Shown: positions 7,141 to 24,300 of the stretch, in pieces | How the letters are laid out: each line of letters starts with the position of its first letter | How positions within the stretch are numbered: position 1 is the first letter of the stretch | Origin: Algoriphagus sp. | Lineage (GTDB): Bacteria; Bacteroidota; Bacteroidia; Cytophagales; Cyclobacteriaceae | DNA length: 64,000 nt | Direction: 5' to 3' | Assembly: GCF_024305035.1 (NCBI RefSeq) | Contig: NZ_JAMWZB010000011.1 | Span: forward strand, 62,001-126,000 | Made by a program: the position numbers and the translations under genes | The notes under the pieces: generated by a model | What the model saw: the letters and a program-made list of their open reading frames with translations, nothing else | What the model was told of the DNA's origin: nothing | Database searches by the model: none

Positions 7141-7189
7141 GGATTTGTGATTGAAAGGTCTAATATCGAAATTATTTTTGTAAATATTA

Positions 7190-7220
7190 TTTGTTAGAGT
7201 GATCTAACTTTATACTTTTG
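7190..7220 (+). promoter_or_regulatory. Promoter with embedded DtxR-like operator
   Basis: TTTG at 7190-7193 and TACTTTTG at 7213-7220 match the Bacteroidota -33 and -7 elements with a 19-base spacer. Within that spacer, GTTAGAGTGATCTAAC (7193-7208) is a perfect 6-bp inverted repeat with a 4-base centre, sharing the TTAG-N6-CTAA frame of the classical DtxR/IdeR box. Binding there would block the polymerase. The neighbouring repressor gene starts 50 bases to the left. Operator identity is inferred. Confidence 0.6.
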
Positions 7221-7279
7221 TTTATGTAATTAATTTATTTATAAACCAATAAGAGTAATAAATTTTCCAAATCAGATCC

Positions 7280-9553
7280 ATGCAAAGAAAAATTAGAATC
7301 ATTTTCGGTTTTCTCAGCCTCTTATTCTCTGGAAATCTATGGGGTCAGCATGTACTAAAAGGAAAAATTGAATCCCAGGGTGTTCCCGTGGAGTTTGCTG
7401 CCGTTTCGTTGATCGACTTGAATTTGGGAACGGTGAGTGATAGCTTGGGGATGTATACGCTAGAGCTTCCTAAAGCTGGGACTTATACCATTCAAATTTC
7501 CAGAATCGGATTTCGGACTATTCAGCGAGAAGTCAATACCAATAATGATTTTTTGACCATAGATCTGGAAAGGCTGGATGCGAGCTTGGATGAAGTAGTC
7601 ATTAGCGGTACCCTGGAGCAAGTTTCTAGACTGTCCAGTCCAGTTTCTGTGGAGGTCTACCGTGATGGATTTTTTAAAGCAAATCCGACTCCATCCATAT
7701 TCGAATCCTTGCAGACAATAAATGGTGTCCGACCCCAAATCAACTGTAACATCTGTAACACCGGAGATATCCACATCAATGGATTGGAAGGGCCATACAC
7801 CATGATTTTGATTGATGGAATGCCCATAGTCAGTGGTTTGGCGACGGTTTACGGATTGACTGGTATACCCCAATCTCTTGTTGACCGGATCGAAATCGTC
7901 AAGGGCCCTGCTTCTACGCTTTATGGCTCGGAGGCGGTGGGTGGCTTAATCAATGTCATTACCAAAAATGCAGCAAAAGCACCTCGGGTCAGTTTGGATT
8001 ATTTTGGCACTTCTTGGGGGGAGCATAATCTGGATTTGGGTGTGAGGTCTAGGTTGGGAAATACGATTCAGGGATTGACGGGGTTGAATTTATTTGATTA
8101 CAGCAATCCAATAGATAACAATGACGACGGAATGACGGATTTGACTTTGGCTAAAAGGGCGTCTATTTTTCAAAAAATCAATTGGTTAAGAAGATCTAAA
8201 AAGGAGTTCAATCTGGCTGCTAGATATGTTTATGAAGATCGATGGGGGGGGCAGTTGAATTGGGAAAAAGCTGATCGCGGCGGTGATGAGGTATATGGGG
8301 AAAGTATTTACACCGACCGCTGGGAGCTTTTTGGAAATTACGAATTGCCTGTTAATGATCGAGTTAACTTTCAGTTTTCGGCCAATAATCACGATCAAAA
8401 TTCCGCCTATGGAGACCAGTTATACTTGGCCCGACAGACTACAGCTTTTGGACAGCTGACTTGGAATTATAGGCTGAGAAATCATCAATTCCTTACTGGT
8501 TTGGCCTACCGGTATACTTTTTATGATGACAATACCCCGGCTACAAAACAGTTTGATTCCGAACAAAATGATCCTTCGCAGATTCACTTACCCGGGATTT
8601 TTGTGCAAAATGAATGGAAAGTCTCTCCGACAAGTACGATTCTGATGGGAGTCAGGTCGGATTTTAATTCCATCCATGGTGTCATCCTTTCTCCAAGATT
8701 GAATTTAAAAATTCAATCCGAGGACCAAAGTTCGGTGTTTCGATTTTCTTTGGGAAATGGTTTCCGGGTTGCTAATGTTTTTACCGAGGATCATGCGGCC
8801 TTGACTGGGGCTAGAGAGGTGGTGTTTTCTGAAAAATTGAACCCTGAGCGATCCTGGAATAGCAATGTCAATCTGATCAAAAAAATATACACCGAGGACG
8901 GCAACTTCATCAGTTTTGACGCATCAGCCTTTTATACGCACTTTTCCAATCGGATCGTGCCTGACTATGAAACCAACCCCAATCAAATTATCTATGCCAA
9001 TTTAGCGGGAAAAGCAATTTCAAAGGGGGCCTCGCTAAATGCCACTTTGGCATTTCGAAACGGTTTGGAAGGGACCCTGGGGATGACACTTCAGGACGTT
9101 AAATTGGATCAAAAGGGAGAACGAGTCAGGCAACTGCTCACTGAGCATTTTTCGGCTGTTTGGAATTTAGGTTATAACGTTCAGTCTTGGAATTTAACTG
9201 TCAACTACACCGGAAATCTTTACAGTCCCATGCGACTTCCCTTATTGGGAGAGTTGGATTCAAGGGTGGAATATTCTCCTTGGTGGAGCATTCAAAATCT
9301 GCAGGTAACCAAATCGTATGGAGATCGGCTTGAAGTTTATGGTGGAGTGAAGAATTTACTCAATTTCACGCCTCCGGGTAATAGTATTGCCCGGGCTTTT
9401 GATCCATTTGACCGAGAGGTTCAATTCGGACCAAACGGATCTGTAATTCCCACCCCAACTAATCCAGAAGCTCTTACTTTTGATCCGACTTACATGTTTG
9501 CGCCGAATCAAGGTATCCGCGGGTTTTTGGGAATTAGGTATACGATCTTCTGA
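7280..9553 (+). CDS. TonB-dependent outer-membrane receptor, probably metal-regulated
   Basis: 757-residue outer-membrane active transporter. A signal peptide (to about residue 22, GNLWGQ) is followed by a carboxypeptidase-regulatory-like beta-sandwich (HVLKGKIESQGVPVEFAAVSLIDLNLGTVSDSLGMYTLELP). Next comes the plug (SIFESLQTINGVRPQINCNICNTGDIHINGLEGPYTMILIDGMPI ... VDRIEIVKGPASTLYGSEAVGGLINVITK), then the barrel, ending in an aromatic residue (GIRYTIF). The plug carries an unusual NCNICN cysteine pair, common in one Bacteroidota receptor clade. The ligand is not shown by sequence; the DtxR-like box in its promoter argues for an iron or manganese source. The last base is one nucleotide from the convergent CHY gene. 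Confidence 0.9.
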   Translation: MQRKIRIIFGFLSLLFSGNLWGQHVLKGKIESQGVPVEFAAVSLIDLNLGTVSDSLGMYTLELPKAGTYTIQISRIGFRTIQREVNTNNDFLTIDLERLDASLDEVVISGTLEQVSRLSSPVSVEVYRDGFFKANPTPSIFESLQTINGVRPQINCNICNTGDIHINGLEGPYTMILIDGMPIVSGLATVYGLTGIPQSLVDRIEIVKGPASTLYGSEAVGGLINVITKNAAKAPRVSLDYFGTSWGEHNLDLGVRSRLGNTIQGLTGLNLFDYSNPIDNNDDGMTDLTLAKRASIFQKINWLRRSKKEFNLAARYVYEDRWGGQLNWEKADRGGDEVYGESIYTDRWELFGNYELPVNDRVNFQFSANNHDQNSAYGDQLYLARQTTAFGQLTWNYRLRNHQFLTGLAYRYTFYDDNTPATKQFDSEQNDPSQIHLPGIFVQNEWKVSPTSTILMGVRSDFNSIHGVILSPRLNLKIQSEDQSSVFRFSLGNGFRVANVFTEDHAALTGAREVVFSEKLNPERSWNSNVNLIKKIYTEDGNFISFDASAFYTHFSNRIVPDYETNPNQIIYANLAGKAISKGASLNATLAFRNGLEGTLGMTLQDVKLDQKGERVRQLLTEHFSAVWNLGYNVQSWNLTVNYTGNLYSPMRLPLLGELDSRVEYSPWWSIQNLQVTKSYGDRLEVYGGVKNLLNFTPPGNSIARAFDPFDREVQFGPNGSVIPTPTNPEALTFDPTYMFAPNQGIRGFLGIRYTIF

Positions 9554-10044: not shown

Positions 10045-10626
10045 TTAATTGACTGTAATCGTTTCTTCAATGCTTCCACAATTGAGCATAGAACTGCCAA
10101 ATAGCGGGTTCATAATTTCCTGGTTTGAACTAAGCCACATTCCACCTGTATTATTTTTATACATGGGACAATATTGATGGTAGAGTGTTCGATCAGCACC
10201 AGCGATTTTAATGAAATCCATCAAAACCACGCTAAGGGCTTGGAAATTTTCCCGCTGAATGACGATATCTTCACTTTGTAGTTTTTTTGTTAATTCAATC
10301 GCCTCAGCTTTTACTTCTTCTAAATTTTGACCATTTCCAGTCATGGATGCTGTATCAAAATCTTCCAAGGCACTAACCATTTTTTCACTAGTTGCTGATG
10401 CAGTTGCGGCATCATCTGCGACTAAGGCATCTTTGATTTCCAAATAAGAGTCTATGATAGGGGAGGTCGATGTGTTTTGAACCACCTCTAGTGAACTGGA
10501 AGGAGAAATTTCATGAGTAGTATTGGCCTCCTCTTGGCTTTCTGTGGAAGTTGATTTTTCTCCACAAGAACTAATCGCAGTTGAAATCAAGGCGAGTAAT
10601 AAAAGAGATTTTTTCATAGGATTCAT
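10045..10626 (-). CDS. DUF3347 lipoprotein, probable periplasmic metal-binding partner of the efflux system
   Basis: 193 residues with lipoprotein signal (lipobox ISSC, Cys21 from the first Met). A Ser/Thr/Glu-rich linker leads to a helical DUF3347 domain (PIIDSYLEIKDALVADDAATASATSEKMVSAL). The end carries the motif YHQYCPMYKNN...WLS...IMNPLFGSSMLNCG, with conserved Cys, Met and His suited to soft-metal binding. The same domain closes the adjacent CusB-like adaptor. The ATG at 10617 (MKKSLLLL) gives a more typical signal peptide than the one at 10626. The gene follows the adaptor by 30 bases and is almost certainly in its operon. A copper-delivery or sensing role is inferred from context. Confidence 0.85.
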   Translation of the reverse strand: MNPMKKSLLLLALISTAISSCGEKSTSTESQEEANTTHEISPSSSLEVVQNTSTSPIIDSYLEIKDALVADDAATASATSEKMVSALEDFDTASMTGNGQNLEEVKAEAIELTKKLQSEDIVIQRENFQALSVVLMDFIKIAGADRTLYHQYCPMYKNNTGGMWLSSNQEIMNPLFGSSMLNCGSIEETITVN

Positions 10627-10656: not shown

Positions 10657-12420
10657 TTAATGATTATGAACCGACGGGGTGGACGGATTTCCACCCAGTT
10701 GCATGACGGGTTGGCCTTTTAGGTAAGTTTCCCTAATTTCTCCGCAAGTTAACATAGATGCTCCAAAATATGGATTTGTGATGTCTTTTTGCTCACTCAA
10801 CCAGTATGCCCCCTCATTCCCAAAAGCCATCGGACAGTAATCTTTGTACACCACTTCCTTGTTTAACCCAAAGGTCTCTGTCATTTCTAAAATATAGAAA
10901 GAAAGCGTGGAGAAATGTTTCCGCGCTCCCTTGATTTCTGTTGATGAAATCATGCTGTTTTTGGCATTTTTCAATCCTTCAAGTATTTCCATCCATCGGT
11001 CATGAGCTTCTTCAGTGGTCAGATTCATGGTTACCCCGGCAAGCCGATCTTCCATCGAATCAAGTGATTTTTTGACTTCATCCAGATTGTCTTTAACTAA
11101 TCCGTTTTTCACTTGAAAATAAGCATCAGCAACTGCGGTGATCTGCTTTATAAATTCCTCGGAAACTTCCATAGAGCTTGTTTTTGGTCGATTCATCATG
11201 CTGAAATTTCCTGAGAGCTGAGCTGCCGCATCAATGGCAAAGACACCATGGGTGACCACTTCTTCCCCAAGCAATACCCCTGATTTGATTTCTTGGTTTT
11301 CTCCCATCCGCTCTCCGAGTACAACTTCTCGCATTTGGTAGGCGGGTGGATTGGCATCGGGTACATTCACATAAACGACCGATCGTTTGCCTGACCAGAG
11401 AACAGCTGTCCTTGGTACGATAAGGGACGAGCTCCCCGAATTGCTTTTGATGGTTACCTTGGCATTTACAAACATCTCAGGTTTGAGTTTTTGCTTGGGA
11501 TTAGTTACTTCTGCCCTAACTTTTGCCGATCGGGTATTGGGGTCAATTACCGGATCGATAAAGCTGATTTTTGCTTGAAAATTTTCCCCGGGAATTCCTG
11601 CTACAGAGAAATTGAGTTGATTTCCAATTTGTAAAAATGGCAAATCTGTTTCGTAAGCATCTAAGAGTACCCAGAGTTTATCCAGATTGATTACATTAAA
11701 TAAGACTGATCCGGTAGCAATATAATCACCGACTGAAACATTTCGCTGAGTCACCACACCGGATTGATCGGCAAGAATATCAACTAGTTCACTAACCTGC
11801 CCAGAGGTTTCAAGATCCTTAATTTGCTGTTCAGATAGCTTCCATAGTCGTAATTTTGCTTTGGCTGCCTGGTACAGCTGGGGGTAATCCTCTTTAATTT
11901 CGGCTGCCTCTAGCAACTCTGTCTGTGCGCTCATCAATTCTGGAGAATAAAGAGTTGCAATGCGTTGACCTTGATTAACTTGCTCACCGGTAAAGGTGAT
12001 AAATAGACGCTCAATCCTTCCTGGGAATTTGCTCGTGAGAGTGGCAATTTCCCGCTCGTCTCCTTGAATTTTCCCAGTCAATAAGAGTTCCCCGCCAGGA
12101 CTGACATCATTGACTTTGGTAGTTTGGATTTGCGCCAAAGCTACAGCCTCTTTGGTCATTTCAAATGTCATGGGATTGCTCGAGGAGGTGGATGCCTGAG
12201 AAGCAGGAATAAGGTCCATTCCGCAAATGGGACAATCTCCCGGCTCTGTTAATTTGACCTGAGGATGCATGGAACAAGTCCATGTTGTTGTGGAGTCGGC
12301 TTGGTGCTCATGTTCTTCATGATTGGCCTCCTGTGCGGGCTTTAGGAGCCATCCTGCCGCCAATCCGAGGATCATCGCCAAGATGATTAAGGTTAGTTTG
12401 TTGTCTGTTATCTTTTTCAT
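10657..12420 (-). CDS. cusB: CusB-like periplasmic adaptor with heavy-metal-binding and DUF3347 domains
   Basis: 587-residue membrane-fusion protein linking the RND pump to the TolC channel. Order: membrane anchor (about 9-26, LTLIILAMILGLAAGWLL); His-rich stretch HEEHEHQ; heavy-metal-binding domain TWTCSMHPQVKLTEPGDCPICGMDL with C49, C63 and C66; then the HlyD/CusB barrel-sandwich and beta-barrel (LTSKFPGRIERLFITFTGEQVNQGQ, GVVTQRNVSVGDYIATGSVLFNVINLDKLWV). A C-terminal DUF3347 domain ends DYCPMAFGNEGAYWLSEQKDITNPYFGASMLTCG. Adaptors without the extra domains are about 400 long. Its start overlaps the TolC gene by 4 bases, so translation is probably coupled. Copper or silver is the likely substrate; cobalt/zinc/cadmium is not excluded. 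Confidence 0.9.
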   Translation of the reverse strand: MKKITDNKLTLIILAMILGLAAGWLLKPAQEANHEEHEHQADSTTTWTCSMHPQVKLTEPGDCPICGMDLIPASQASTSSSNPMTFEMTKEAVALAQIQTTKVNDVSPGGELLLTGKIQGDEREIATLTSKFPGRIERLFITFTGEQVNQGQRIATLYSPELMSAQTELLEAAEIKEDYPQLYQAAKAKLRLWKLSEQQIKDLETSGQVSELVDILADQSGVVTQRNVSVGDYIATGSVLFNVINLDKLWVLLDAYETDLPFLQIGNQLNFSVAGIPGENFQAKISFIDPVIDPNTRSAKVRAEVTNPKQKLKPEMFVNAKVTIKSNSGSSSLIVPRTAVLWSGKRSVVYVNVPDANPPAYQMREVVLGERMGENQEIKSGVLLGEEVVTHGVFAIDAAAQLSGNFSMMNRPKTSSMEVSEEFIKQITAVADAYFQVKNGLVKDNLDEVKKSLDSMEDRLAGVTMNLTTEEAHDRWMEILEGLKNAKNSMISSTEIKGARKHFSTLSFYILEMTETFGLNKEVVYKDYCPMAFGNEGAYWLSEQKDITNPYFGASMLTCGEIRETYLKGQPVMQLGGNPSTPSVHNH

Positions 12421-13910
12421 TTCGATTGAATTTGAAGAGAATTAGCAGCTAGCATCTCCAATTTGGAGAGACTCTGATATTGGGTATTGATCGAATTGAC
12501 TCGCTTGAGCTGGTAGTCCAGCAATCGCTGTTGGGTTCGTAATACCAGGTCCAATTCTGTTGAATTTGCCGAGAAGGCTGTGAGGAGGAGTTGGATTTGT
12601 TGCTCAACTAGTTTGATTTGAGAATCATAAAGTTCCAGTTGGCGATTGGCGTTTTCCCAATCGCGGAAAGCATTGGACCACTCCATGGCTAGAAGATTCT
12701 TCGTTTCTTGCTGTCGGTAAACAGTCGATTCCTTAAGAAGTTGAGCCTCTTTGATCTTTGAGTTGATTTTTTTCCGATAGATTGGCAGTGACATGCTTAC
12801 CATAGGCATGATCATATTTTGTCCACCCATCTGCATACCGTTTTCGGGTCTGGGACTAAATAGCATGTAATTGACTCCCGCCCCCAACATCGGTTTTCCT
12901 TCCAGTTTAGCCATTTTGGTTTGCTGGTCTAAGGCGGAAAGCTCCGCATCATACATGGAAATCATGGGATTGTTTTTATAAATACTATCCAGAACTTGTT
13001 TTTTATCCAATCTCAGTTCAGCTTTTTCCAATTCCTCGGGAAGGGTGATTTCCGCTTCTTTGTCTCGGTTCAACAGTTGATTGAATTTGATTTGAAGGGG
13101 CTCAAGGTCTGCGTTTAATTGTGCGATTTGATTTTCCAATTCTTTTATTTCTATCTCAATTTGGAGAATTTGATTCATGCCCTCGGTTGTGCTCATTGGA
13201 GAGGATGCCATGGTTTCAGATTGAGCCTGTGACATACCTTCAGGAGCTTTTTCTTCTGCCATAGTTTCCATAGCAGATGGGGAGGTACTTGGCCTGGCTG
13301 TGGTTTTCTTTGCCATCTGAGCGGAAGAGGACGAGTTGCTTTGACCTACTTGGAATTTTACCAAGGCCAATCGTTTGTATTTCTCCAAATAAGATAGATT
13401 TTCTTCCCAAATCGAAATTTCTTCCCGTAAACGAATCAACTCATACCAAGTAGTTTTCACTTGGAAAAACAATTGATTTTTTTGTTCCAGAAATACTTGA
13501 TAGTCTACTTGAGCCATTTGGTTCATTTCCGCTTTTTGGGTGGAAATCATCCCAAACCAAGGAAACATCTGCATCACCCGCAGGTCAGCAGATTGATTTC
13601 CCATCAATCGTTCCATAGGCTTTAAGAAAATGCCGGCTTGAAGCTCTGGGTCCGGCAGACTTGCTTGATTGACACGCTCCAACCGAGCTTCATATTGGGA
13701 ATAGGAAGCTTGAAGTCCGGGATTATTCTCTGCAGCTTGAATCAAATAATCCCTGAGGTCTTGGGCAAATACTTCTTTGGGAATAGAACATACTAGCCCA
13801 AGAAAACCGATGATCACCCAAAAACTAAGAGGGGGAGGCGTGGTTTTGATAGCAATTTTCCGATAGGTAGGCCTAGCTATTTTTATGGTTTTCAGTAAGT
13901 TGGTTTCCAT
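12417..13910 (-). CDS. TolC-family outer-membrane efflux protein with Met/Ser-rich insert
   Basis: 497-residue outer-membrane channel of the heavy-metal efflux complex (CusC/CzcC type). After a basic start and a signal-like hydrophobic segment (about 29-49, ending VFAQ) come the two TolC repeats: long coiled coils such as LFFQVKTTWYELIRLREEISIWEENLSYLEKYKRLALVKFQVGQ and the second repeat ending LAMEWSNAFRDWENANRQLELYDSQIKLVEQQIQLLLTAFS. Residues about 191-247 are a low-complexity Ser/Ala/Met-rich insert with at least eight methionines, absent from the canonical fold. It lies 4 bases after the pump gene and overlaps the adaptor gene. Confidence 0.88.
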   Translation of the reverse strand: METNLLKTIKIARPTYRKIAIKTTPPPLSFWVIIGFLGLVCSIPKEVFAQDLRDYLIQAAENNPGLQASYSQYEARLERVNQASLPDPELQAGIFLKPMERLMGNQSADLRVMQMFPWFGMISTQKAEMNQMAQVDYQVFLEQKNQLFFQVKTTWYELIRLREEISIWEENLSYLEKYKRLALVKFQVGQSNSSSSAQMAKKTTARPSTSPSAMETMAEEKAPEGMSQAQSETMASSPMSTTEGMNQILQIEIEIKELENQIAQLNADLEPLQIKFNQLLNRDKEAEITLPEELEKAELRLDKKQVLDSIYKNNPMISMYDAELSALDQQTKMAKLEGKPMLGAGVNYMLFSPRPENGMQMGGQNMIMPMVSMSLPIYRKKINSKIKEAQLLKESTVYRQQETKNLLAMEWSNAFRDWENANRQLELYDSQIKLVEQQIQLLLTAFSANSTELDLVLRTQQRLLDYQLKRVNSINTQYQSLSKLEMLAANSLQIQSK

Positions 13911-13914
13911 AATA

Positions 13915-16900
13915 TTATGCGTTTGCTTCCTTGGTAAAAACCTTGGAATTATGATTCAATTTTCGCTCAGCCCACCAGCAATACAGAGTTGGGACTATAA
14001 ATACTGTGGTAATTTCTAAAATCATTCCCCCCAAAGCTGGAATTGCCATAGGAATCATGATGTCTGATCCTCGACCTGTGGATGTGAAAATCGGCAGTAA
14101 AGCCAAAAGGGTGGTTGCAGTGGTCATCATGCAGGGTAAAACTCTGCGTTGTCCAGCTTCCAAAACCGCTTCCCGGATGGTACGTTTACTGGTGGGGCGA
14201 TTTTCTTTAAAGCTTTGGTCTAAGTAGGAACTCATGACCACCCCATCATCGGTAGCAATTCCAAACAAGGCGATAAAGCCTACCCATACTGCTACGCTGA
14301 GATTATAAACTTTCATCTGAAATAAATCCCGAAAATTGGTTCCAAACAGATTGAAGTCGAAAAACCAATCTTGGCCAAAGAACCAAAGCATAAGAAATCC
14401 TCCTGAAAACGCCATTGCAATTCCTGAGAAAACAAAAAGGGAAGTCGATACCGCTCTAAATTGAAAATAAAGGATCAAAAAGATCAGAATCAACGAAATA
14501 GGGACGACAATCGAAAGCCGTTTTTCTGCCCGGATTTGGTTTTCATAGGAGCCGGAAAACTGGAATCGAACCCCAGTAGGGACTGTTAATTCACCGGATT
14601 CAATTTTTTGATTGAGGTACCGTTGAGCATCCTCCACTACTGTGACTTCAGCAAATCCCGGCATTTTGTCCAGCAGGACATAACCGACAAGAAAACTATT
14701 TTCCCCTCGGATCATGTCTGGGCCAGGTCGGTAGTTGATCGATGCCAATTGCCCTAAAGGAATATAAGTGCCTTGCGGAGTGGGGATTTGGAGGTTTTCA
14801 ATGGCCTGTGGATCGTCTCTGAATTCCCGTGCATATCGAACACGTATCGGGAATCGCTCCCGACCCTCCACGGTGGTGCTCACTTGCATTCCCCCTATGG
14901 CAGTTTCGATAAAATCCTGAACATCCACTACATTCATGCCGTACCGGGCGATCTGCTCTCGATTGATGTCTAATTCCAAATAGGGTTTTCCAACAATTCG
15001 ATCAGCAAAGACAGCCTCTTTTTTTACCGAGGGAACCTCTTTGAGGTATTTTTCAAGTTCGAGGCCGAAGGACTCAATCGTTTTTAAATCAGGGCCATAT
15101 ACTTTGATTCCCATAGGTGCTCTCATGCCGGTTTGAAGCATCACCAATCGAGTTTCTATCGGCTGAAGTTTGGGAGAAGAAGTCACACCCGGGAGGTTGA
15201 CTACGCTGATTATCTCGTCCCAAATATCATCCGGAGATTGGATATGAGTTCTCCATTGACGAAAATATTGGCCATTTTCATCGGGGATCAAGTTTTTGGT
15301 TTCGATTTGATCTGGATCCATGGTCTCCGGGTCATAAAAAGAACCGTCTTTTAGTTCGAATTTTCCATTCTTTACTTTGAACCGTAATCGGGTTCCGTTG
15401 AGGTCGGTTACGTATTCTGATTTGTAGTTGATGGTATTTTCAAACATCGTCATAGGGGCAGGATCAATGGCAGTTTCAGCCCGTCCAGCCTTGCCAACGA
15501 CCATTTCTACTTCTGGAATAGCCGTCACTAGCATATCGAGTTTTTGTAAAACCTCTTTGTTTTCCTGGACTCCTGAATGCGGCATGGTGGTGGGCATGAG
15601 CAAAAATGAGCCTTCATTTAAGGAAGGCATAAATTCCTCACCCAAACCTGGAAAGGTGTGAGTCAATCCTGACCAAATTCCAGTAGTTCGGATATTAATA
15701 CCGACTTGATCAAATGCTTTGGGAACTAGGCCGAATACGGTTCCAAACCCCAACCAAACACTGATTCCTACTAAAATAACAAGTGTGGGAAATAGAAAAA
15801 ATGTCCCTTTATTTTCCAGGCACCATCGTAGGATTTTGGGGTAGACGTTAATGAAAATGGAAAAGCCTCCTAAGAAGAACGCCAAAAGAATGAGAATAAA
15901 AATAAAGTTGAGAACTGTACTGGCAGAAACTCCGAGTGGCATCCATTCCAAGGTTAACAGCATGGAAACAAACAATAAAGTAAGGCCAATGATCAGTTTA
16001 TCTTTATAGATTCCAATTTTTTCAGGGTAATGAAAAGCCAAGGTATTGATCAACCCATATCCAAAAATAAGCCACCCACCCCAGCTCCAAACGGTGAAGG
16101 CTATGATGGGGCCTAGAATAATCAACCCGTAATTGATGTAAGACCCGATTTTTACTTTTAGCTTTTTGATCGAAAAAATCCAATGAGAAAATGCCGGCAT
16201 GATTAAAAGGGTGAATAACACCGCCGAAATCAAGGCAAATGTTTTGGTATAGGCTAAGGGGCCAAATAATTTACCTTCTGCTGCCTCCAAAGTGAATACG
16301 GGCAAAAAGCTGATGATAGTTGTGCTGACAGCAGTGATAATTGCGCCTGAAACCTCAGCGGTGGCCAGATAAACAGTTTGGATTTTGGATTGTCCTTTTG
16401 GTGCTATTTCCAGATGACGAAGGACATTTTCATTGAGAATAATACCTAAATCGACCATGGTGCCTATGGCAATGGCTATTCCCGATAAGGCAACGATATT
16501 GGCATCCACCCCAAGGTATTTCATGAAAATAAAGCAGATCAATACCGCCATGGGTAGCAGTGCCGATATTAAAAGCGAGGCACGTAGATTAAATACCATG
16601 ACCAAAATCACAATAATGGTCACCAATATCTGCAAACTGATCGCATCGTATAGTGTGCCTAGTGTTTCGAAAATCAGGCCTGTTCGATCATAAAAAGGGA
16701 CCAGGGTAACTTTTGAAACCGTGCCATCTGCTAAGGTTTTAGAAGGTAGACCTTGGGAGAGTTTTTCGATTTCAGCTTTTACTCCTTCAATAACCTGAAG
16801 TGGATTGTCCCCATATCGGGCAATGACCACACCGCCTACTGCCTCCGCTCCGCTTTTATCTAGGATTCCGCCCATGTTTCTGGGTTGAGGGCCGATATTC

Positions 16901-17745
16901 ACTCGTGCCACATCCTGGATTCGGATAGGGACATTATCGGTGACTTTTACTACGGCTTGATCCAGATCACTAAGCTCTTCTACGTAGCCTAGGCCTCGGA
17001 TGAAGTAATCCACTCGATTGATTTCAATCGTGTTGGCAGATACATCCAAATTGGATTTTCGAACCGCTTCCATCACATCCATCAAGGAAACTTGATAGGT
17101 TTTCAAAGCCCCTGGATCAACATCAATTTGATATTCTTTTATGTAGCCACCTACTGAAGCTACCTCAGAGACACCTTCAACGGCAGTCAGAGAATAACGA
17201 ATGTAATAATCTTGAATGGTTCGTAGTTCATGTAAATCCCAACCTCCGACTGGATTACCCTGTTCATCCCTTCCTTCCAGGGTGTACCAAAAAACCTGAC
17301 CCAGTGCCGTAGCATCGGGTCCCAGCTTGGGTTGAACACCCTCCGGAAGCAAATCTGAGGGAAGCGAGTTAAGTTTTTCAAGTACTCGAGATCGACTCCA
17401 GTAAAATTCGGTATCCTCATCAAAAATGATGTAGATACTCGAGAAACCAAAAGCAGAACTGGAGCGAACGCTTTTGACTCCGGGCAGACCCAAAAGCGAA
17501 GTAGTCAAGGGATAGGTGATTTGATCCTCCACATCTTGAGGAGATCGTCCCATCCATTCGGTAAACACGATTTGTTGGTTTTCTCCAATGTCAGGTATGG
17601 CATCGACAGGAACTGGATCTCGGGGTAAAAAGTCCAAATTCCAATTAAATGGAGCGGTTACCAATCCCCAACCAATTAAAAGGAAAAGGAAAATAAGGGT
17701 AACGAGTTTATTCTCCAGAAAATACCGGATGATTTTATTGATCAT
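13915..17745 (-). CDS. cusA: CusA/CzcA-family heavy-metal RND efflux pump
   Basis: 1276-residue proton-driven inner-membrane exporter. The start IIRYFLENKLVTLIFLFLLIGWGLVTAP is the first transmembrane helix, followed by the HME-RND motifs DAIPDIGENQQIVFTEWMGRSPQDVEDQITYPLT and GLPGVKSVRSSSAFGFSSIYIIFDED. The proton-relay helix GIAIAIGTMVDLGIILNENVLRHL has the expected Asp, and GIATDDGVVMSSYLDQSF is in the second half. It is longer than the usual 1040 or so residues because of an added hydrophobic block at about 530-650 and a long periplasmic insertion at about 760-860. Copper/silver specificity is inferred from the adjacent copper ATPase and adaptor. Confidence 0.93.
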   Translation of the reverse strand: MINKIIRYFLENKLVTLIFLFLLIGWGLVTAPFNWNLDFLPRDPVPVDAIPDIGENQQIVFTEWMGRSPQDVEDQITYPLTTSLLGLPGVKSVRSSSAFGFSSIYIIFDEDTEFYWSRSRVLEKLNSLPSDLLPEGVQPKLGPDATALGQVFWYTLEGRDEQGNPVGGWDLHELRTIQDYYIRYSLTAVEGVSEVASVGGYIKEYQIDVDPGALKTYQVSLMDVMEAVRKSNLDVSANTIEINRVDYFIRGLGYVEELSDLDQAVVKVTDNVPIRIQDVARVNIGPQPRNMGGILDKSGAEAVGGVVIARYGDNPLQVIEGVKAEIEKLSQGLPSKTLADGTVSKVTLVPFYDRTGLIFETLGTLYDAISLQILVTIIVILVMVFNLRASLLISALLPMAVLICFIFMKYLGVDANIVALSGIAIAIGTMVDLGIILNENVLRHLEIAPKGQSKIQTVYLATAEVSGAIITAVSTTIISFLPVFTLEAAEGKLFGPLAYTKTFALISAVLFTLLIMPAFSHWIFSIKKLKVKIGSYINYGLIILGPIIAFTVWSWGGWLIFGYGLINTLAFHYPEKIGIYKDKLIIGLTLLFVSMLLTLEWMPLGVSASTVLNFIFILILLAFFLGGFSIFINVYPKILRWCLENKGTFFLFPTLVILVGISVWLGFGTVFGLVPKAFDQVGINIRTTGIWSGLTHTFPGLGEEFMPSLNEGSFLLMPTTMPHSGVQENKEVLQKLDMLVTAIPEVEMVVGKAGRAETAIDPAPMTMFENTINYKSEYVTDLNGTRLRFKVKNGKFELKDGSFYDPETMDPDQIETKNLIPDENGQYFRQWRTHIQSPDDIWDEIISVVNLPGVTSSPKLQPIETRLVMLQTGMRAPMGIKVYGPDLKTIESFGLELEKYLKEVPSVKKEAVFADRIVGKPYLELDINREQIARYGMNVVDVQDFIETAIGGMQVSTTVEGRERFPIRVRYAREFRDDPQAIENLQIPTPQGTYIPLGQLASINYRPGPDMIRGENSFLVGYVLLDKMPGFAEVTVVEDAQRYLNQKIESGELTVPTGVRFQFSGSYENQIRAEKRLSIVVPISLILIFLILYFQFRAVSTSLFVFSGIAMAFSGGFLMLWFFGQDWFFDFNLFGTNFRDLFQMKVYNLSVAVWVGFIALFGIATDDGVVMSSYLDQSFKENRPTSKRTIREAVLEAGQRRVLPCMMTTATTLLALLPIFTSTGRGSDIMIPMAIPALGGMILEITTVFIVPTLYCWWAERKLNHNSKVFTKEANA

Positions 17746-17840: not shown

Positions 17841-18257
17841 CTAGAGTAAGAATGATTGGAAAAGAATGAAGCGTTCGGTTTTTAAAGCGGGTGGGGGAGA
17901 TTCGGTGAAACGGCTTAATTCACTGAATACCTCACTAGGAAACAAATAAAAAGTAACTAAGTAAGCGGAAAGAAAGGTCGGAGAGATTAGCTTGGTTTCT
18001 GATTTTTCCAATCCAGTTTCTGCTTCGGTTTGGAAGTGCTCGTACTGGTCATCACAGCAGTCATGCAAAGGGGGATTTTCGGATTCAGTTTGATGGCAGT
18101 CAGATTTTTTCTGAAGCATTTGACAATCCAAATGAGCTTTTTCCCAACCTATTTTTACAGCAGTTTTTTCCCCCATGCAAAGGTGCACAGCCTTTGCCAC
18201 TCCTACATTGGAAAGGAGAATCACCGAAGCTAGCGCTATGGAAATCAGTTTGTTCAC
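17841..18257 (-). CDS. HYC_CC_PP family exported protein
   Basis: 138 residues from a GTG start at 18257. The N-terminus is a signal peptide (LISIALASVILLSNVGVAKA), followed by HLCMGE, several further Cys/His (HLDCQML, SDCHQ), a CC pair (HDCCDDQYEHFQTEAE) and a hydrophobic segment (SAYLVTFYLF). It ends with the signature SPPPALKTERFILFQSFLL. This is the order of elements of the Bacteroidota HYC_CC_PP family, usually found beside metal-efflux genes. Biochemical function is unknown; the Cys/His content fits envelope metal binding. Same strand and 95 bases before cusA. Confidence 0.75.
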   Translation of the reverse strand: MNKLISIALASVILLSNVGVAKAVHLCMGEKTAVKIGWEKAHLDCQMLQKKSDCHQTESENPPLHDCCDDQYEHFQTEAETGLEKSETKLISPTFLSAYLVTFYLFPSEVFSELSRFTESPPPALKTERFILFQSFLL

Positions 18258-18662: not shown

Positions 18663-20888
18663 TTAAAGTTTTCTTGCTTTTAGTCTTAAACTATTCATCA
18701 CTACCGAAACGGAGCTAAAAGCCATTGCCGCACCAGCAATCATCGGATCAAGGAGGAACCCATTGATGGGATAAAGTATTCCTGCTGCAATCGGAATCCC
18801 GATCAGGTTGTATATGAAAGCCCAGAATAGGTTTTGTTTAACACCGTTGACTGTTAGATGTGAGAGCCGAAATGCCTGGGGGATTTTTTCCAGATCAGAG
18901 GTGATCAGGGTGATTTTTGCAACATCCATGGCGATATCCGAACCTTGCCCCATAGCGATACTGACATCGGCCTGTGCCAACGCTTCTGAGTCATTGATTC
19001 CATCACCGACCATTGCAACTATTTTGCCTTTTTCTTGGAGCGATTTGACAAAGGAAGATTTGTCAGCTGGCATTACTTCAGCTTTAAATTGCTTAATTCC
19101 GACGTGATTGGCCACGACTTGGGCTGTTTGTGGATTGTCCCCGGTGAGCATGTAGACTTCCATACCGGATTTTTGAAGTTGTTGGATTGCTGGTTTAGCG
19201 CTTAATTTGATTTGGTCTTCAATTCCCAGAATCGCTAATCCTACTTTTTCTTCGGCGAACCAAATTACGGTTTGGGCTTTTTGGCTCCAAGTCTTTGCTA
19301 GTGATTGAAGTTCTTCTGAAATGGCAATACCGTTTTCTTCCATTAATTTTAGGTTTCCGACAAAATAGCTTTTTCCGTCAAAGTCCCCTTTTACCCCACG
19401 GGCGGTTATACTTTCAAAATTTTTCAATTCTAAATTTAGAATTCCTTTTTCCTTTAAAAATTTAACCACTGCATCAGCCAATGGATGTTCGGATTTGGAT
19501 TCAAGTGCTGCTAATATGGGTAAGTAGTTTTGCTCCTCTTTTTTTTCAGCCCATTGTATTTGGACCACACTGGGTTTTCCCATCGTGATCGTCCCTGTTT
19601 TATCCAAAATTAGGGCATTGACCTGATGTCCGAGTTCTAAGCTTTCTGCATCGCGGATGAGAATTTGGTTTTCGGCCCCTTTGCCAACCCCAACCATGAT
19701 TGCTGTCGGGGTGGCAAGCCCCAGCGCACAAGGACAAGCAATTACCAAGACGGAAACCGAAGCTAAAAGTGCCTGAGAAAAGGCGTTTTCTCCTCCAAAG
19801 ATCAGCCAAATTCCAAAGGTCAACAGTGCAATTAGAATGACCACGGGAACAAATATTCCAGCAACCTTATCCACAAGTTTTTGGACGGGAGCCTTGCTTC
19901 CCTGAGCTTCTTGAACGCGGGTAATAATCTGTGAAAGCAGAGTGGAGGCACCGACTTTCTGGGCTATTATCTCCAAACTTCCTTTCTGATTGATCGTTCC
20001 GGCAAATACCTTGTCTTCTGGTTTTTTCTCCACGGCGACAGGTTCACCACTTATCATACTTTCATCGATGAAACTGCTGCCTGAAACGACAAGCCCATCA
20101 ACTGGAACTTTTTCTCCGGGTTTGATCAGGATCCGATCCTGAATCTGTACCTCATTGATGTTAATTTCTAGGGGTTGGCCATTTTGGATTTTTGTCAAAG
20201 TTTTAGGTTGCAACCCGATTAGCTTTTTTAATGCCGTACCGGTTTGGGACTTGGCACGTTCTTCAAGTAATTTTCCAAAGGAGATAAATACGATGATTAC
20301 GGTGGCCGCTTCATAGTATACGTGAGGATGAATCCCTCTGGTATGCCAGAAATCAGGGAAAAAAGTATTAAAAGCAGAAAATAAAAATGCAATACCGGTA
20401 CTTAAAGCCACAAGTGTGTCCATGTTGGCTTTGTGCTGTCGGGCTTGTTTCCAGGCGTTGAGGTAGAAATGCTTTCCAAAATAAAATAACACAGGAATAC
20501 TGAGCCAAAAACTAATCCATTTGCCAGGGTCCCAATCCATAAAAAACATCCCCAAAACAACTACCGGTAAAGTCAACAAAGCCGCTCCTAGGGTACGTTT
20601 TTTGACCTTTACATAGTGTTCCTTTTGAAAGTTTTCTTGCGCTTCTTCGGGATTGTCCTGAGTTAAAATCAGACCATATCCGACGTCCTGGAGCGCTTTG
20701 TCAAGATCCATAGGACTGAGCGTTTCATCATATTCTACCCAAACGCTGTTCGAGGCGAAATTCACAGTAGCAGACTTCACTCCCGGGGTGTAGGATAAAA
20801 TAGTTTCCACGCTTGAGGCACATGCAGCGCAGGTCATTCCCGTCACCGGAAAATTTCTCTTTTGAATATTCCCATTACTCATTTCCAT
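18663..20888 (-). CDS. copA: Copper-translocating P1B-type ATPase
   Basis: 741-residue inner-membrane Cu(I) exporter. One N-terminal HMA domain carries GMTCAACASS (C20, C23). Eight predicted membrane segments follow. The actuator loop has SGEPVAVEK; the ion-binding CPC is at 385-387 (ACPCALGLATP); the phosphorylated Asp is D429 in LDKTGTITMG. SEHPLADAV, the P-domain MLTGDNPQTA and VGDGINDSEALAQADVSIAMG, and C-terminal NLFWAFIYNLIGIPIAAG are in place. The ATG at 20888 is used; an ATG six bases later is also possible. It lies 82 bases from the HMA-AraC regulator, and the gap contains an inverted repeat. Confidence 0.96.
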   Translation of the reverse strand: MEMSNGNIQKRNFPVTGMTCAACASSVETILSYTPGVKSATVNFASNSVWVEYDETLSPMDLDKALQDVGYGLILTQDNPEEAQENFQKEHYVKVKKRTLGAALLTLPVVVLGMFFMDWDPGKWISFWLSIPVLFYFGKHFYLNAWKQARQHKANMDTLVALSTGIAFLFSAFNTFFPDFWHTRGIHPHVYYEAATVIIVFISFGKLLEERAKSQTGTALKKLIGLQPKTLTKIQNGQPLEININEVQIQDRILIKPGEKVPVDGLVVSGSSFIDESMISGEPVAVEKKPEDKVFAGTINQKGSLEIIAQKVGASTLLSQIITRVQEAQGSKAPVQKLVDKVAGIFVPVVILIALLTFGIWLIFGGENAFSQALLASVSVLVIACPCALGLATPTAIMVGVGKGAENQILIRDAESLELGHQVNALILDKTGTITMGKPSVVQIQWAEKKEEQNYLPILAALESKSEHPLADAVVKFLKEKGILNLELKNFESITARGVKGDFDGKSYFVGNLKLMEENGIAISEELQSLAKTWSQKAQTVIWFAEEKVGLAILGIEDQIKLSAKPAIQQLQKSGMEVYMLTGDNPQTAQVVANHVGIKQFKAEVMPADKSSFVKSLQEKGKIVAMVGDGINDSEALAQADVSIAMGQGSDIAMDVAKITLITSDLEKIPQAFRLSHLTVNGVKQNLFWAFIYNLIGIPIAAGILYPINGFLLDPMIAGAAMAFSSVSVVMNSLRLKARKL

Positions 20889-20931
20889 GCAACAAAGATG
20901 GGGGTAAGCCTCTTTTGATTTGTTATGAAAT

Positions 20932-20960
20932 TTTGTAAAAAAGCTATAAGATTTTACAAA
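20932..20960. promoter_or_regulatory. Inverted repeat upstream of copA, candidate metal-responsive operator
   Basis: TTTGTAAAA (20932-20940) and TTTTACAAA (20952-20960) are a perfect 9-bp inverted repeat with an 11-base spacer, so the half-site centres are two helical turns apart. It sits in the 82-base gap between the HMA-AraC regulator gene and copA, 44 bases from the copA start. Function is inferred from position. Confidence 0.4.
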
Positions 20961-20970
20961 TGAGTAGACG

Positions 20971-21540
20971 CTAGACTTCGTCCAAATTTTTTCGTTTACC
21001 TGCGTTTTGCTTGAATAGGGAGGGAGTCATCCCGGTTTCTTTTTTGAAAAGGGCAGAAAGATAGGCCGCTGAGTTATAACCAAGCTGGAATGCAATTTCA
21101 GCAAGTTTACGTTCATTGTACAGGATCAACTCCTTGGCTTTTTCGATTTTGAGTCGGGTAATGTATTTTTCTATGGTGACTCCTTCAACCTGAGAAAAAA
21201 GTCGGCTGAGCTGATGGTAATCTTGCTGAAGTTTTGCTTCCAAAAAGTCAGAATAATTGGTTTCCAAAACTTGTCCAGAGTGATGGATTTGGTGGATTAG
21301 CGTATTTTTAATGGATTCAATGATCGAGGAGTTTTTCGATTCTAATATGTCGAATCCTAATTCCTGTAGGCTTTTGGCCAGTTGTTTTTTTTTGTCTGAA
21401 CTTAAGGGTTCATGGAGCTGAATCGAACCCAAATCCACTGATTGAAATGGAATGTTACACCGGTTTAGTACCTCTTTTACTGCCTGAATACAACGAGGAC
21501 AGACCATGTTTTTAACTCGAATGGGTTGCCTATTTTCCAT
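20971..21540 (-). CDS. AraC-family regulator with HMA-like metal-binding N-terminus
   Basis: 189-residue cytoplasmic regulator. Residues about 6-70 resemble a heavy-metal-associated domain with the loop NMVCPRC (C14, C17) and the pattern IQAVKEVLNRCNIPFQSVDLGSIQLHEPLSSDKKKQLAKSLQELGFDIL. About 90-185 is an AraC double helix-turn-helix (QLSRLFSQVEGVTIEKYITRLKIEKAKELILYNERKLAEIAFQLGYNSAAYLSALFKKETGMTP). This suggests a direct Cu(I) sensor controlling the downstream copA and efflux genes. It is the first gene of the minus-strand copper run. It is much shorter than sugar-sensing AraC proteins. Confidence 0.88.
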   Translation of the reverse strand: MENRQPIRVKNMVCPRCIQAVKEVLNRCNIPFQSVDLGSIQLHEPLSSDKKKQLAKSLQELGFDILESKNSSIIESIKNTLIHQIHHSGQVLETNYSDFLEAKLQQDYHQLSRLFSQVEGVTIEKYITRLKIEKAKELILYNERKLAEIAFQLGYNSAAYLSALFKKETGMTPSLFKQNAGKRKNLDEV

Positions 21541-21589: not shown

Positions 21590-21622
21590 AAAAAATCCCG
21601 ATAAGTAACTTATCAGGATTTT
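21590..21622 (-). terminator. Intrinsic terminator after the HlyD/TolC operon
   Basis: Read on the minus strand, AAAATCCTGATAAG and CTTATCGGGATTTT pair around a TTA loop and are followed by more T's. It lies 24 bases past the adaptor stop codon and isolates that operon from the copper regulator downstream. Confidence 0.8.
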
Positions 21623-21645: not shown

Positions 21646-22953
21646 TTAGTTTGGTTTGATTGGCGGAGTACTCATTTTCTCCACCTTATCGCCTTCCTCC
21701 AGTTCTTTACTTACCGTGAAATAGGGCCCGGACACTACTTCTTGATCTTCGGTTAACCCTTCGAGTACTTCTATGAATTGAAAATCAGAAATCCCAGTTT
21801 TGATTTGCGTCATTTTTGCTTCCCCATTTTCTACCAAAAATACCAATTCCTGTGGACGGGTAGTTCCATCCGCCAAGGTATCCAATTTGTTTTCCCGGGT
21901 AGTTACTGCTGCTAATGGAACTGAGAGCACATTGTCTTTCTGGTTGGTGATGATTTCAACAGATGCGGTCATTCCCGGTCTAAAGGGGTATTTGTTTCCA
22001 GCATCGACCAGGTCTTGATAAGAACTGTTGAGGATTCTGATTTTTACTTTAAATTCGGTGACCGCATCAGCAGAAGCTTTGGTATTTGCCGTGTTAGCAA
22101 TACTTGTGACAACCCCCTTAAAGGTTTTTCCTGAAGTGGAATAGGCGTCCACTTCGATCAAGGTGGTGTCTCCTAAAGCCAAACGAACGATATCATTTTC
22201 GTTTACATCAACTCTGACTTCCATTTTGGTTAGATCTGCAATGGTGAGCATTTCGGTACCGGCCATTTGCTGAGTTCCCACTACTCGTTCTCCTTTTTCT
22301 ACCAAAAGGTTGGAAACTATCCCACTGACGGGTGAATACACATTAGTTAGGCGAAGGTTTTCGGCTGCTTCATTTACGGTGGCCTGGGAGCTTTTGACCA
22401 CGAACTCAGCTGCAATTACATTTTGCTTTGCAGCTTCAAGATCTTTTTGAGCCGTGATGTAATTAGCCTCAGCCTGTTCAAAATCAGCATCGGAAATTGC
22501 CTTTTGTTCATAGAGGGTCTTTTGGCGTTTATACTCCAATTCACTACGGGTAAATTGGGCTTCGGCACGCTGTAAGCTCGCCTTGCTTTGTGCCAAATTG
22601 GCCTGTTGCTGATTGAGATTTGCGCGGCTCCGATCCAGTGCGGAAATAAAATTGTCAGGTCTAATTTTGACCAATAGTTTTCCCATTTCGACCGAATCAC
22701 CTTCCTGAATATTTAACTCAATGATTTCTCCAGCTACGTCAGGACTAAGGGTGACTTCTATTTCAGGTTGGATTTCACCTGAAGCACTTACTTTTTCTAT
22801 AATCGAGTTTTTACCCACTTTTACGATTTCAACTGGAGTGATTTTTTCTCCTCCTATCCACCCAAGGGCTCTTCCGATAATTGCAAAAAGGATAAGAACA
22901 CCGACAATTCCGAGGAGATAATAAAGTAATTTGTTTGATTTTTTTGTGGCCAT
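21646..22953 (-). CDS. HlyD/MacA-type periplasmic efflux adaptor
   Basis: 435-residue membrane-fusion protein. One N-terminal membrane segment (LLYYLLGIVGVLILFAIIGRALGWI) is followed by the lipoyl half (SASGEIQPEIEVTLSPDVAGEIIELNIQEGDSVEMGKLLVKI). A long coiled coil (about 85-200, NLNQQQANLAQSKASLQRAEAQFTRSELEYKRQKTLYEQKAISDADFEQAEANY) precedes the second lipoyl half (NVYSPVSGIVSNLLVEKGERV) and beta-barrel. It would connect an inner-membrane ABC or RND pump to the TolC protein encoded 3 bases upstream. No such pump is encoded here; a terminator follows. Substrate unknown. Confidence 0.9.
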   Translation of the reverse strand: MATKKSNKLLYYLLGIVGVLILFAIIGRALGWIGGEKITPVEIVKVGKNSIIEKVSASGEIQPEIEVTLSPDVAGEIIELNIQEGDSVEMGKLLVKIRPDNFISALDRSRANLNQQQANLAQSKASLQRAEAQFTRSELEYKRQKTLYEQKAISDADFEQAEANYITAQKDLEAAKQNVIAAEFVVKSSQATVNEAAENLRLTNVYSPVSGIVSNLLVEKGERVVGTQQMAGTEMLTIADLTKMEVRVDVNENDIVRLALGDTTLIEVDAYSTSGKTFKGVVTSIANTANTKASADAVTEFKVKIRILNSSYQDLVDAGNKYPFRPGMTASVEIITNQKDNVLSVPLAAVTTRENKLDTLADGTTRPQELVFLVENGEAKMTQIKTGISDFQFIEVLEGLTEDQEVVSGPYFTVSKELEEGDKVEKMSTPPIKPN

Positions 22954-22956
22954 GGT

Positions 22957-24300
22957 TTAGTTGAGGTTGATGGGGTTGCCGAGATAGAAGTCGAGGACCT
23001 TTACTCTGAAAATGTATGTGTATTTCGCATTAATAAGATCTGCCTGGGCATTGAAGAAATTTGCTTGGGAAACTTGAAAATCTACCGAATTGATTGCTCC
23101 AAGGTCAAATCGTTGCTGTGCAATACGGAACGTTTCCTCGAGGCTTTTTACCCGTGAAAGGGATGCCTGATATGATTGCTCAGCAGCCAAGGCATTGTTA
23201 TAGGCAGTTTCGATGTCCTGCCGCAATTGATTTTCTGTTTCCTGTTGAGACACCTCAGCTAGTCGCTCTTGTACTCGGGCACGCTGAAGGTTTGCTTTAT
23301 TTGAAAACTGGGAGAAAACAGGAATACTCAACTGGATATTGACTGACTGGGAAAGGTTGTTTTTGATTTGGCTGGAAAGTGGGTCGGGTTCAAATCCGGG
23401 AGCGGCTCTATCTACGTAGTTTGAAAAGAGGTTCGCCCCGATCCCCAAAGTTGGATAGAATTGACCCCGAGCGATTTTGACTCCTAAACGAGCACTTTCC
23501 AAGGAAGTTTTGGCGGCTTTTATTTCCGGCATTTTGTCTACAGCTGTCGCAAAAATGGAAGACGCATCTTCTGAAATAATCAAATTTTCATTGATTTCTA
23601 GTTTGGGCTCGACGATTTCAAACCCCTCTGAATAAGGGATTTGAAGTGCTTGTGCGAGCTCAAGTTTGGACAAGTTAAGGGATTGATAGGCGTTGATCAC
23701 CTCCAATTCATTCGTTGCGACCTGGGCTTCCAAGTCCAGTTGATCGGCTAAGGGAAGAGATCCTGCCTGAACCAGGCGTTTTGTCCTATCCAGTTGTTCT
23801 TTGGTTGTTTCGAGTTGCCTCTCGGCTATTTTCGCCTGCTCCCGATTGAATACAATATTGATGTACAGATTGATCACATTTAATGTGATGTTGTTTTTTG
23901 TGGCCTCGATCGTGTACTTGCCCGTTTCCAAGTCAATTTTTGCCTGATTTACCGAATTGGTGATCCGTTGTCCTGCAAAAAGTGTCGCATTGGAATTGGC
24001 CGAGACATTGATGTTTCCGATTCGCTGCGTTTCAAATAAGTTGGTCACCGGGTTAATTGATCGCCCCCATCGGTATCCTGAGCTCGCCCCGGTAGAAAAT
24101 GAGGGGAGTCTGGATCCTTGAGCTTGAAGTAAGGTGGCCTCGTTGCTGAGTTGGTTTAGTTCGCTTCGCTTGAGGCTGAGGTTGTTTTCCAGTGCTATTT
24201 TCACGGCGGTCTCTAAATCAATAGGGCCGTTGCTGTTCTGGGAAAAGGCACAAAAAAAACTACTGGCACTCAAGGCAAAGCTGAGTAAAAGCTTTTTCAT
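22957..24300 (-). CDS. TolC-family outer-membrane efflux protein
   Basis: 447 residues with a signal peptide (LLLSFALSASSFFCAFSQ) and two TolC repeats: PIDLETAVKIALENNLSLKRSELNQLSNEATLLQAQGSRLPSFSTGASSGYRWGRS in the first, and SLESARLGVKIARGQFYPTLGIGANLFSNYVD then VSQQETENQLRQDIETAYNNALAAEQSYQASLSRVKSLEETFRIAQQRFDLGAINSVDFQVSQANFFNAQADLINAKY in the second. Trimeric outer-membrane channel with periplasmic coiled-coil tunnel. It follows sdaAB by 8 bases and precedes the adaptor by 3, so the three genes look like one transcript. Confidence 0.9.
   Translation of the reverse strand: MKKLLLSFALSASSFFCAFSQNSNGPIDLETAVKIALENNLSLKRSELNQLSNEATLLQAQGSRLPSFSTGASSGYRWGRSINPVTNLFETQRIGNINVSANSNATLFAGQRITNSVNQAKIDLETGKYTIEATKNNITLNVINLYINIVFNREQAKIAERQLETTKEQLDRTKRLVQAGSLPLADQLDLEAQVATNELEVINAYQSLNLSKLELAQALQIPYSEGFEIVEPKLEINENLIISEDASSIFATAVDKMPEIKAAKTSLESARLGVKIARGQFYPTLGIGANLFSNYVDRAAPGFEPDPLSSQIKNNLSQSVNIQLSIPVFSQFSNKANLQRARVQERLAEVSQQETENQLRQDIETAYNNALAAEQSYQASLSRVKSLEETFRIAQQRFDLGAINSVDFQVSQANFFNAQADLINAKYTYIFRVKVLDFYLGNPINLN

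Follow-up and report, generated by a model that had tools for sequence, protein, structure and literature searches.

Genes and features of the copper locus

The window, the whole 64,000-nucleotide stretch of the Algoriphagus sp. genome that was analyzed (contig NZ_JAMWZB010000011.1, positions 62,001 to 126,000), carries a row of copper genes preceded by a gene for a short transcriptional regulator (Table 1). The first-pass annotation, which gave no strand, had described this regulator as an HMA-like domain fused to an AraC DNA-binding domain, an architecture that is upheld by the minus-strand open reading frame, Pfam matches and an AlphaFold model. The plus-strand frame over the same positions is full of stops. 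The start of copA, which encodes the only Cu-type ATPase over cut-off in this genome, lies 82 nt downstream of the regulator. Behind copA, and likewise behind the small HMA and HYC genes, gaps of about 90–100 nt leave room for further promoters within the copA-cus row. The last gene of the row encodes a CHY zinc-finger protein (PF05495; 9555–10100, minus strand). On the other side of the regulator, an RND_mfp/MacA-like adaptor gene and a TolC-type gene precede it on the same strand (21646–24300), and the list of open reading frames contains no permease gene directly beside this pair. Three terminator-like sites were found in the window, compared to a mean of 0.7 in shuffled sequence, and an Rfam search of the window returned a tRNA only.

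Table 1. Features of the copper locus, with window positions and supporting evidence.
Feature	Position	Strand	Evidence or remarks
Terminator-like stem and T run	21592..21622	-	Between the preceding adaptor gene and the regulator
Regulator gene	20971..21540	-	189 aa, ATG start; HMA-like domain and AraC DNA-binding domain
HMA-like domain, about residues 5-67	21340..21528	-	AlphaFold, Foldseek, profile-profile match to HMA domains
Metal loop M12-V-C14-P-R-C17	21490..21507	-	Sequence; M12, C14, R16, C17 invariant in 72 sequences
Linker helix, residues 69-87	21280..21336	-	AlphaFold; possible dimer helix (inference)
AraC-type DNA-binding domain, about residues 96-180	21001..21255	-	Pfam, AlphaFold, Foldseek
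Probable operator, direct repeat AAAATCTTATA (20945-20955) and CAAAATTTCATAACA (20921-20935)	20921..20955	-	Period 21; conserved in relatives
CATCTTTG, candidate -7 box of the copA promoter	20893..20900	-	TTTG spacing; box type from general knowledge
copA, copper-type P1B ATPase with N-terminal HMA	18663..20888	-	TIGR01511 598.9 bits, cut-off 397; PF00403
Small HMA-like protein, 69 aa	18350..18559	-	PF00403 21.6 bits, below cut-off 24.8
HYC_CC_PP family protein	17841..18257	-	NF047658 64.2 bits, cut-off 28
CusA/CzcA-type RND exporter	13915..17745	-	TIGR00914 770.4 bits, cut-off 701
Outer membrane efflux protein, OEP-type	12417..13910	-	PF02321 1e-36
CusB-type adaptor, heavy-metal-binding domain (HMBD) and DUF3347	10657..12420	-	PF16576, PF19335, PF11827
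DUF3347 protein	10045..10626	-	PF11827 2.1e-16

The first-pass annotation had also held that the regulator of the island is not CueR, CsoR, CopY or a CusRS system, and indeed none of these is among the island genes identified. Searches of the whole genome found no CsoR (PF02583, E ≤ 1e-8) and no CueR (TIGR02044, E ≤ 1e-15). Four BlaI/CopY-family genes (PF03965) lie outside the window, and three OmpR-type matches that score below the cut-off of the CusR-like model lie outside the island. The regulator itself shows no MerR-type domain among its six Pfam families at E ≤ 1 or the 25 of 33 NCBIfam matches listed, and neither Trns_repr_metal (CsoR, PF02583) nor Penicillinase_R (CopY/BlaI, PF03965) is among those Pfam families. 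Ten other AraC-type matches occur in the genome; those on the copA contig are over 10 kb away from that gene and the rest are on other contigs.

Domain architecture of the regulator

A scan of named genomes confirmed at least 582 related stretches, of which the best 80, ranked by likeness to the query, were taken as named loci; counts from this set are consequently biased towards the query. The alignment used here (A3) consists of the window protein and proteins from 71 of the 80 loci, six having been omitted for length or start codon, followed by L107, L123 and L132; a further set (A4) comprises 57 loci. Membership of the AraC/XylS family is met by a two-helix-turn-helix domain (PF12833/PF00165) scoring 67.7 bits, compared to a cut-off of 33.6, with HTH_18 (1.1e-18) and HTH_AraC (5.6e-13) matching residues 108–178. 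A domain of this type is matched in 72/72 aligned sequences at E ≤ 0.01.

The N-terminus reads K10-N-M-V-C-P-R-C17. N11, M12, V13, C14, R16 and C17 are invariant across the 72 sequences, so the metal-loop motif is more than chance, and the MxCxxC loop of HMA domains is met. The Pfam HMA match is weak (PF00403, E 0.013, 16.3 bits) and misses the gathering score of 24.8, for which reason the domain is named HMA-like and not filed under PF00403; the claim thus needed other evidence. Only 10/72 aligned sequences match PF00403 at E ≤ 0.01. The match places residues 7–29 on profile positions 2–24 without gaps, putting C14 and C17 at positions 9 and 12, which are also the positions of CopA C20 and C23 if that protein is ungapped before the loop. 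A single profile-profile comparison, against HMA domains taken from the CopA proteins of the fetched loci, gave a probability of 95.2 (E 7.9e-9) and aligned MVCPRC on MTCAGC, CxxC on CxxC.

AlphaFold, run with the 72 sequences, modeled the whole regulator with a mean pLDDT of 91.5 and predicted a strand at residues 7–10, a helix at 15–27, strands at 32–36 and 39–42, a helix at 48–60, a further helix at 69–87 and the AraC helices. Modeled alone, the N-terminal domain has the same order plus a strand at 64–66, at lower confidence (pLDDT 82.2). The ferredoxin-like order of strands and helices in HMA domains is therefore met in prediction only, and ACT domains share this fold. A Foldseek search with the whole model returned AraC DNA-binding domains first, with CopZ (2qif) at rank 44. 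With the domain alone, each of rows 1–12 is either a metal chaperone or the metal-binding domain of a pump (probabilities 0.85–1.00), the top row being CopZ 6ff2 (TM 0.62/0.67), and no row reached E ≤ 0.001 (best 0.014). VIA-align gave rows of Z 6.1–7.5 for the domain, none of 8 or above, with ACT domains mixed in. The expectation that the N-terminus folds as an HMA-type ferredoxin-like domain is thus supported by AlphaFold and Foldseek at the level of prediction. We call the domain HMA-like and regard it as a distant homolog of HMA; binding of a soft metal is inferred.

Distribution of the family and linkage to metal genes

Among the best 80 of the at least 582 stretches, all read as Bacteroidota by title except one metagenome bin titled Thalassovita. 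The closest named matches among those listed are from Algoriphagus (59% and 55% identical). Family members occur on plasmids of Hymenobacter, Runella, Spirosoma and others, where their annotation, if any, among the matches listed is AraC-family, helix-turn-helix or response-regulator. In viral contigs, the single match found covers just the AraC part. In an even draw of 198 genomes from the phylum, the HMA-AraC family was found in 97 at E ≤ 1e-10, one of which (G059) is marginal. Several paralogs are possible within one genome.

For comparison of loops and neighbors, 170 full-length members were collected from 160 stretches, 140 of them from the phylum-sample places listed and 20 from a genus sample. 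Locus L306 (G246:C220) has no full-length member and hence contributes none to the 170; at about 6740–7256 it encodes an intact HMA-like domain whose frame stops before a full AraC part, directly preceding a CopA-like start; either gene decay or a fault in the assembly may account for this. Locus L153 (G118, 6553–7809) has tandem family members, with a CGRC and then a CNRC loop, before a single copA.

The metal loop is CxxC in 133 of the 170 members and SxxC in 27, while 10 have neither. Searching with the CopA of the window (phmmer, E ≤ 1e-30) showed a P1B ATPase encoded in the same stretch for 99/133 CxxC members, 0/27 SxxC members and 0/10 of the remainder. Adjacency to copA had been proposed as a property worth surveying, and it proves to be one of the family: a copA-like match is present in 54/80 named loci (tblastn, at least 150 bits, flanks of up to 8 kb, some shorter at contig ends), and 70/133 CxxC members (58 CxRC-type, 12 CxHC) have a heavy-metal ATPase gene on the same strand no more than 1 kb downstream. 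When metal-export genes were counted with eight seed proteins and a 6-kb limit, 109/133 CxxC members had one, compared to 1/37 members without the cysteine pair. By loop, the counts are 95/114 for CxRC-type, 14/15 for CxHC and 0/4 for MACESC members, and 1/27 for SxxC and 0/10 for the others without the pair. With the four MACESC members left out, the proportion is 109/129 (Fisher 6.6e-21); Fisher values ignore relatedness. The 24 CxxC members (of 133) that have no metal gene within 6 kb consist of 19 CxRC-type, one CxHC and all four MACESC members, and four of the 19 (L210, L234, L275, L280) lie on the SxxC side of the tree. The MACESC-loop members form a clade (L215, L230, L227, L242) in which metal seeds were found within 6 kb in none of the four.

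Members without the pair keep other neighbors. Within four genes of 17/37 of them lies a gene from a BLAST cluster represented by a CheB/CheR-PAS-histidine kinase, and 11/37 have a gene from a response-regulator cluster within the same distance. The cysteine pair changed about six times on the tree, three of them on well supported branches, and only three supported independent pairs bear on the link between cysteines and metal genes, which is not enough for a sign test. Because the changes are few, the contrast shows what two branches do and does not amount to many independent experiments.

A conserved direct repeat before copA

The copA promoters of near relatives contain a repeat like CAAAATCTTATAA...CAAAATTCTGTAACA, and the corresponding direct repeat in the window is our probable operator. 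A seedless motif search of the 100 nt that immediately follow the regulator's stop codon in the 80 named loci recovered the same repeat, with a log-likelihood of 599.6 compared to 104–126 for five shuffled sets. TTTG follows exactly 18 or 19 nt past the motif window in 75/90 matches. A Bacteroidota promoter is made up of a -7 box of the type TAnnTTTG together with a -33 box. At araI, beside its promoter, AraC occupies half-sites spaced by 21 bp, and the tandem half-sites of the present repeat share this spacing. The proximal half-site would fall about on the -33 box, as for an activator; this placement is inferred from the spacing. Two other candidates were discarded. An inverted repeat in the window, TTTGTAAAA-N11-TTTTACAAA, was rejected as the operator as the promoters of relatives show a direct repeat, and the first unsupervised motif obtained was a coding stretch resembling the GMTC loop of CopA.

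With a threshold of 12 bits, the seedless matrix was then applied to the 170 other members. The two sets have no identical proteins in common but do include related species, and are thus separate but not independent. The operator was recovered in 29/58 held-out CxRC-type members with an ATPase gene within 1 kb, and so was missed in 29/58. Matches in other classes amount to 7/56 CxRC-type members without such an ATPase, 3/27 SxxC members, 0/12 and 0/3 CxHC members, and 0/4 and 0/10 in the remaining classes. As controls, 0.75% of AT-rich 200-nt pieces from the same loci matched, as did 1/58 of the stretches upstream of the regulator in the first class. An earlier matrix matched 11/12 CxHC members through a TGCACAAGA variant, compared to 0/12 with the seedless matrix, because the CxHC half-sites differ. 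This earlier matrix was started from three hand-picked sites and trained on 135 stretches upstream of copA that overlap its test set; CopA starts are misplaced in many of these loci, so that coding sequence was included and many scores are low. Since it was hand-seeded and overlapping, the counts from the seedless matrix are the ones to trust.

Within this genome the operator pattern occurs as one exact copy, that before copA. Nine other sites match with two or three mismatches, compared to five for a reversed control pattern, and no wider regulon is therefore claimed. At L272, L220, L300 and L203, the stop codon of the SxxC paralog is closely followed by a similar tandem repeat and then a TTTG box, though no P1B ATPase is encoded in these stretches.

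Loop residue and metal type of the linked exporter

The motifs YNxxxxP and MxxSS are characteristic of copper-type ATPases. With CxHC members set aside, the nearest ATPase of a CxxC member carries YNxxxxP in 78/85 cases and both motifs in 73/85; for CxHC members YNxxxxP is found in 0/14. Seven members are exceptions to the copper mark. One (L241) is next to a truncated frame and two (L259) are next to a 335-residue fragment. The other four (L161, L176, L243, L276), which have R in the loop, have as their nearest ATPase a protein of about 650 residues encoded on the opposite strand; L161, L176 and L276 each also contain a CxHC member, to which this ATPase belongs, and for L243 no CxHC member was found in its stretch. 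Four CxHC-linked ATPases tested score 500–518 bits with the cadmium/zinc model TIGR01512, higher than the 360–372 bits with the copper model TIGR01511, which are below its cut-off of 397. For the ATPase that lies 2.6 kb from a CEHC member, the two models give 514 and 408 bits, respectively. The CxHC members form one clade (SH-aLRT 100) within one family and thus represent a single switch only. If the main reading set out below is right, the identity of one loop residue, R or H, goes with the exporter's metal type.

Other copper sensors in the phylum

No CueR over cut-off was found in any of the 198 phylum genomes, while 38/198 have matches to the CueR model below it. In five genomes of one family (G003, G008, G050, G058, G155), none of which has the HMA-AraC family, such a MerR-type match lies about 1 kb from a Cu-type ATPase, and these genes are a possible CueR-like system in the phylum. 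CsoR is present in 60/198 genomes, 43 of those from one family, and occurs together with the HMA-AraC family in seven. When strong CsoR matches (E < 1e-16, 52 genomes) are compared with the 96 genomes holding the HMA-AraC family, G059 not being counted as a holder, 1/198 genomes is shared. This pattern follows clades. Among the 185 genomes with a Cu-type ATPase, 94 have the HMA-AraC family, 49 have strong CsoR and 43 have neither.

Proposed function and relation to known regulators

Computation demonstrates a regulator with an HMA-type predicted fold, an invariant MxCxxC loop, an AraC domain, linkage to copper exporter genes across the phylum and a conserved repeat at fixed spacing from a promoter-like box before copA. 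We interpret the protein as a one-component cytoplasmic Cu(I) sensor and activator of copA, with a probability of roughly three in four; metal binding and induction are inferred. A rise in cytoplasmic Cu(I) would lead to Cu(I) being bound by C14 and C17. The regulator, perhaps a dimer through the helix at residues 69–87, would then change the way it contacts the two half-sites, which are spaced by 21 nt, and RNA polymerase would be recruited to transcribe copA and the genes behind it. The whole copA-cus row may be under this one promoter.

The same arrangement could also be that of a copper-responsive repressor, with apo-protein blocking the copA promoter and Cu(I) releasing it. A protein on the repeat would sit close to the promoter box, and other copper sensors, CsoR and CopY for example, are repressors. 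However, AraC-family proteins are mostly activators, and the 18–19 nt spacing to TTTG suits contact with RNA polymerase and would be needless for a repressor; we consider repression unlikely. Slightly less probable still is that the HMA-like domain, instead of sensing free copper, receives it from the small HMA protein or the HMA domain of CopA, or docks on one of these, and so reads the state of the export machinery. The genes for both partners adjoin the regulator, and chaperone-to-domain transfer of copper is known for the HMA fold, but this requires an extra partner, and the present data do not separate it from direct sensing. A thiol or redox sensor, in which a C14/C17 disulfide would induce the copper genes as part of an oxidative response, is very improbable: CPRC resembles redox CPxC loops and there is a weak Pfam Glutaredoxin match (E 0.15), but an HMA fold with MxCxxC is predicted, M12 and R16 are invariant too, and the H-loop branch goes with zinc/cadmium-type exporters.

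As a direct Cu(I) sensor and activator, the regulator would join parts that are known separately. Its N-terminal domain resembles CopZ/Atx1 chaperones and the HMA domains of CopA (PF00403) in predicted fold and in the MxCxxC loop, but it is below the Pfam cut-off and is joined to a DNA-binding domain. With the AraC/XylS regulators AraC, MarA, SoxS and Rob it has in common the C-terminal two-helix-turn-helix domain, but it has an HMA-like sensor in place of the usual ligand-binding domain. Another AraC-type regulator in a copper setting is that of a copper-related response in uropathogenic E. coli, which we take to be YbtA. That response is, by the title of the report, siderophore-dependent, unlike the role proposed here, and no claim of an HMA domain was found in the available parts of the report (PMC8725597). 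CueR is a one-component cytoplasmic Cu(I) sensor controlling copper ATPase genes, and CsoR likewise, according to the accessible portion of a survey of marine bacteria (PMC10141476). The role proposed for the regulator is the same; CueR and CsoR differ in having other sensor and DNA-binding folds. As far as the accessible portion extends, that survey reports CueR homologs in Pseudomonadota only, and two-component and ECF systems only for Bacteroidota, among others; "AraC" does not appear in that text (PMC10141476). No description of an HMA-AraC copper sensor was found in the literature searched, including the available parts of PMC10141476 and PMC10710014. An earlier one is not excluded, as subscription journals were mostly uncovered. 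The parts are of known kinds. What appears to be new is the way they are combined, how far the combination extends across the phylum, the split between CxRC and CxHC loops, and the repeat.

A broader proposal, for and against which we see the balance as even, is that these proteins make up a family of metal sensors, widespread in Bacteroidota, whose loop can be exchanged. Members with CxRC would serve for Cu(I) and have a TATAA/TGTAA-type direct repeat, those with CxHC would serve zinc/cadmium-type export, their repeat being of the TGCACAAGA type, and a side branch would have lost the cysteine pair and come to serve non-metal signaling genes. In about half of the sampled genomes the family would fill the role that CsoR or CueR-like proteins have elsewhere. 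If the Cu(I)-sensing activator is real, one fold acts as chaperone, pump domain and gene switch in a single pathway, and a defined repeat becomes directly testable or usable in biosensors. The regulator may be how these bacteria notice excess intracellular copper.
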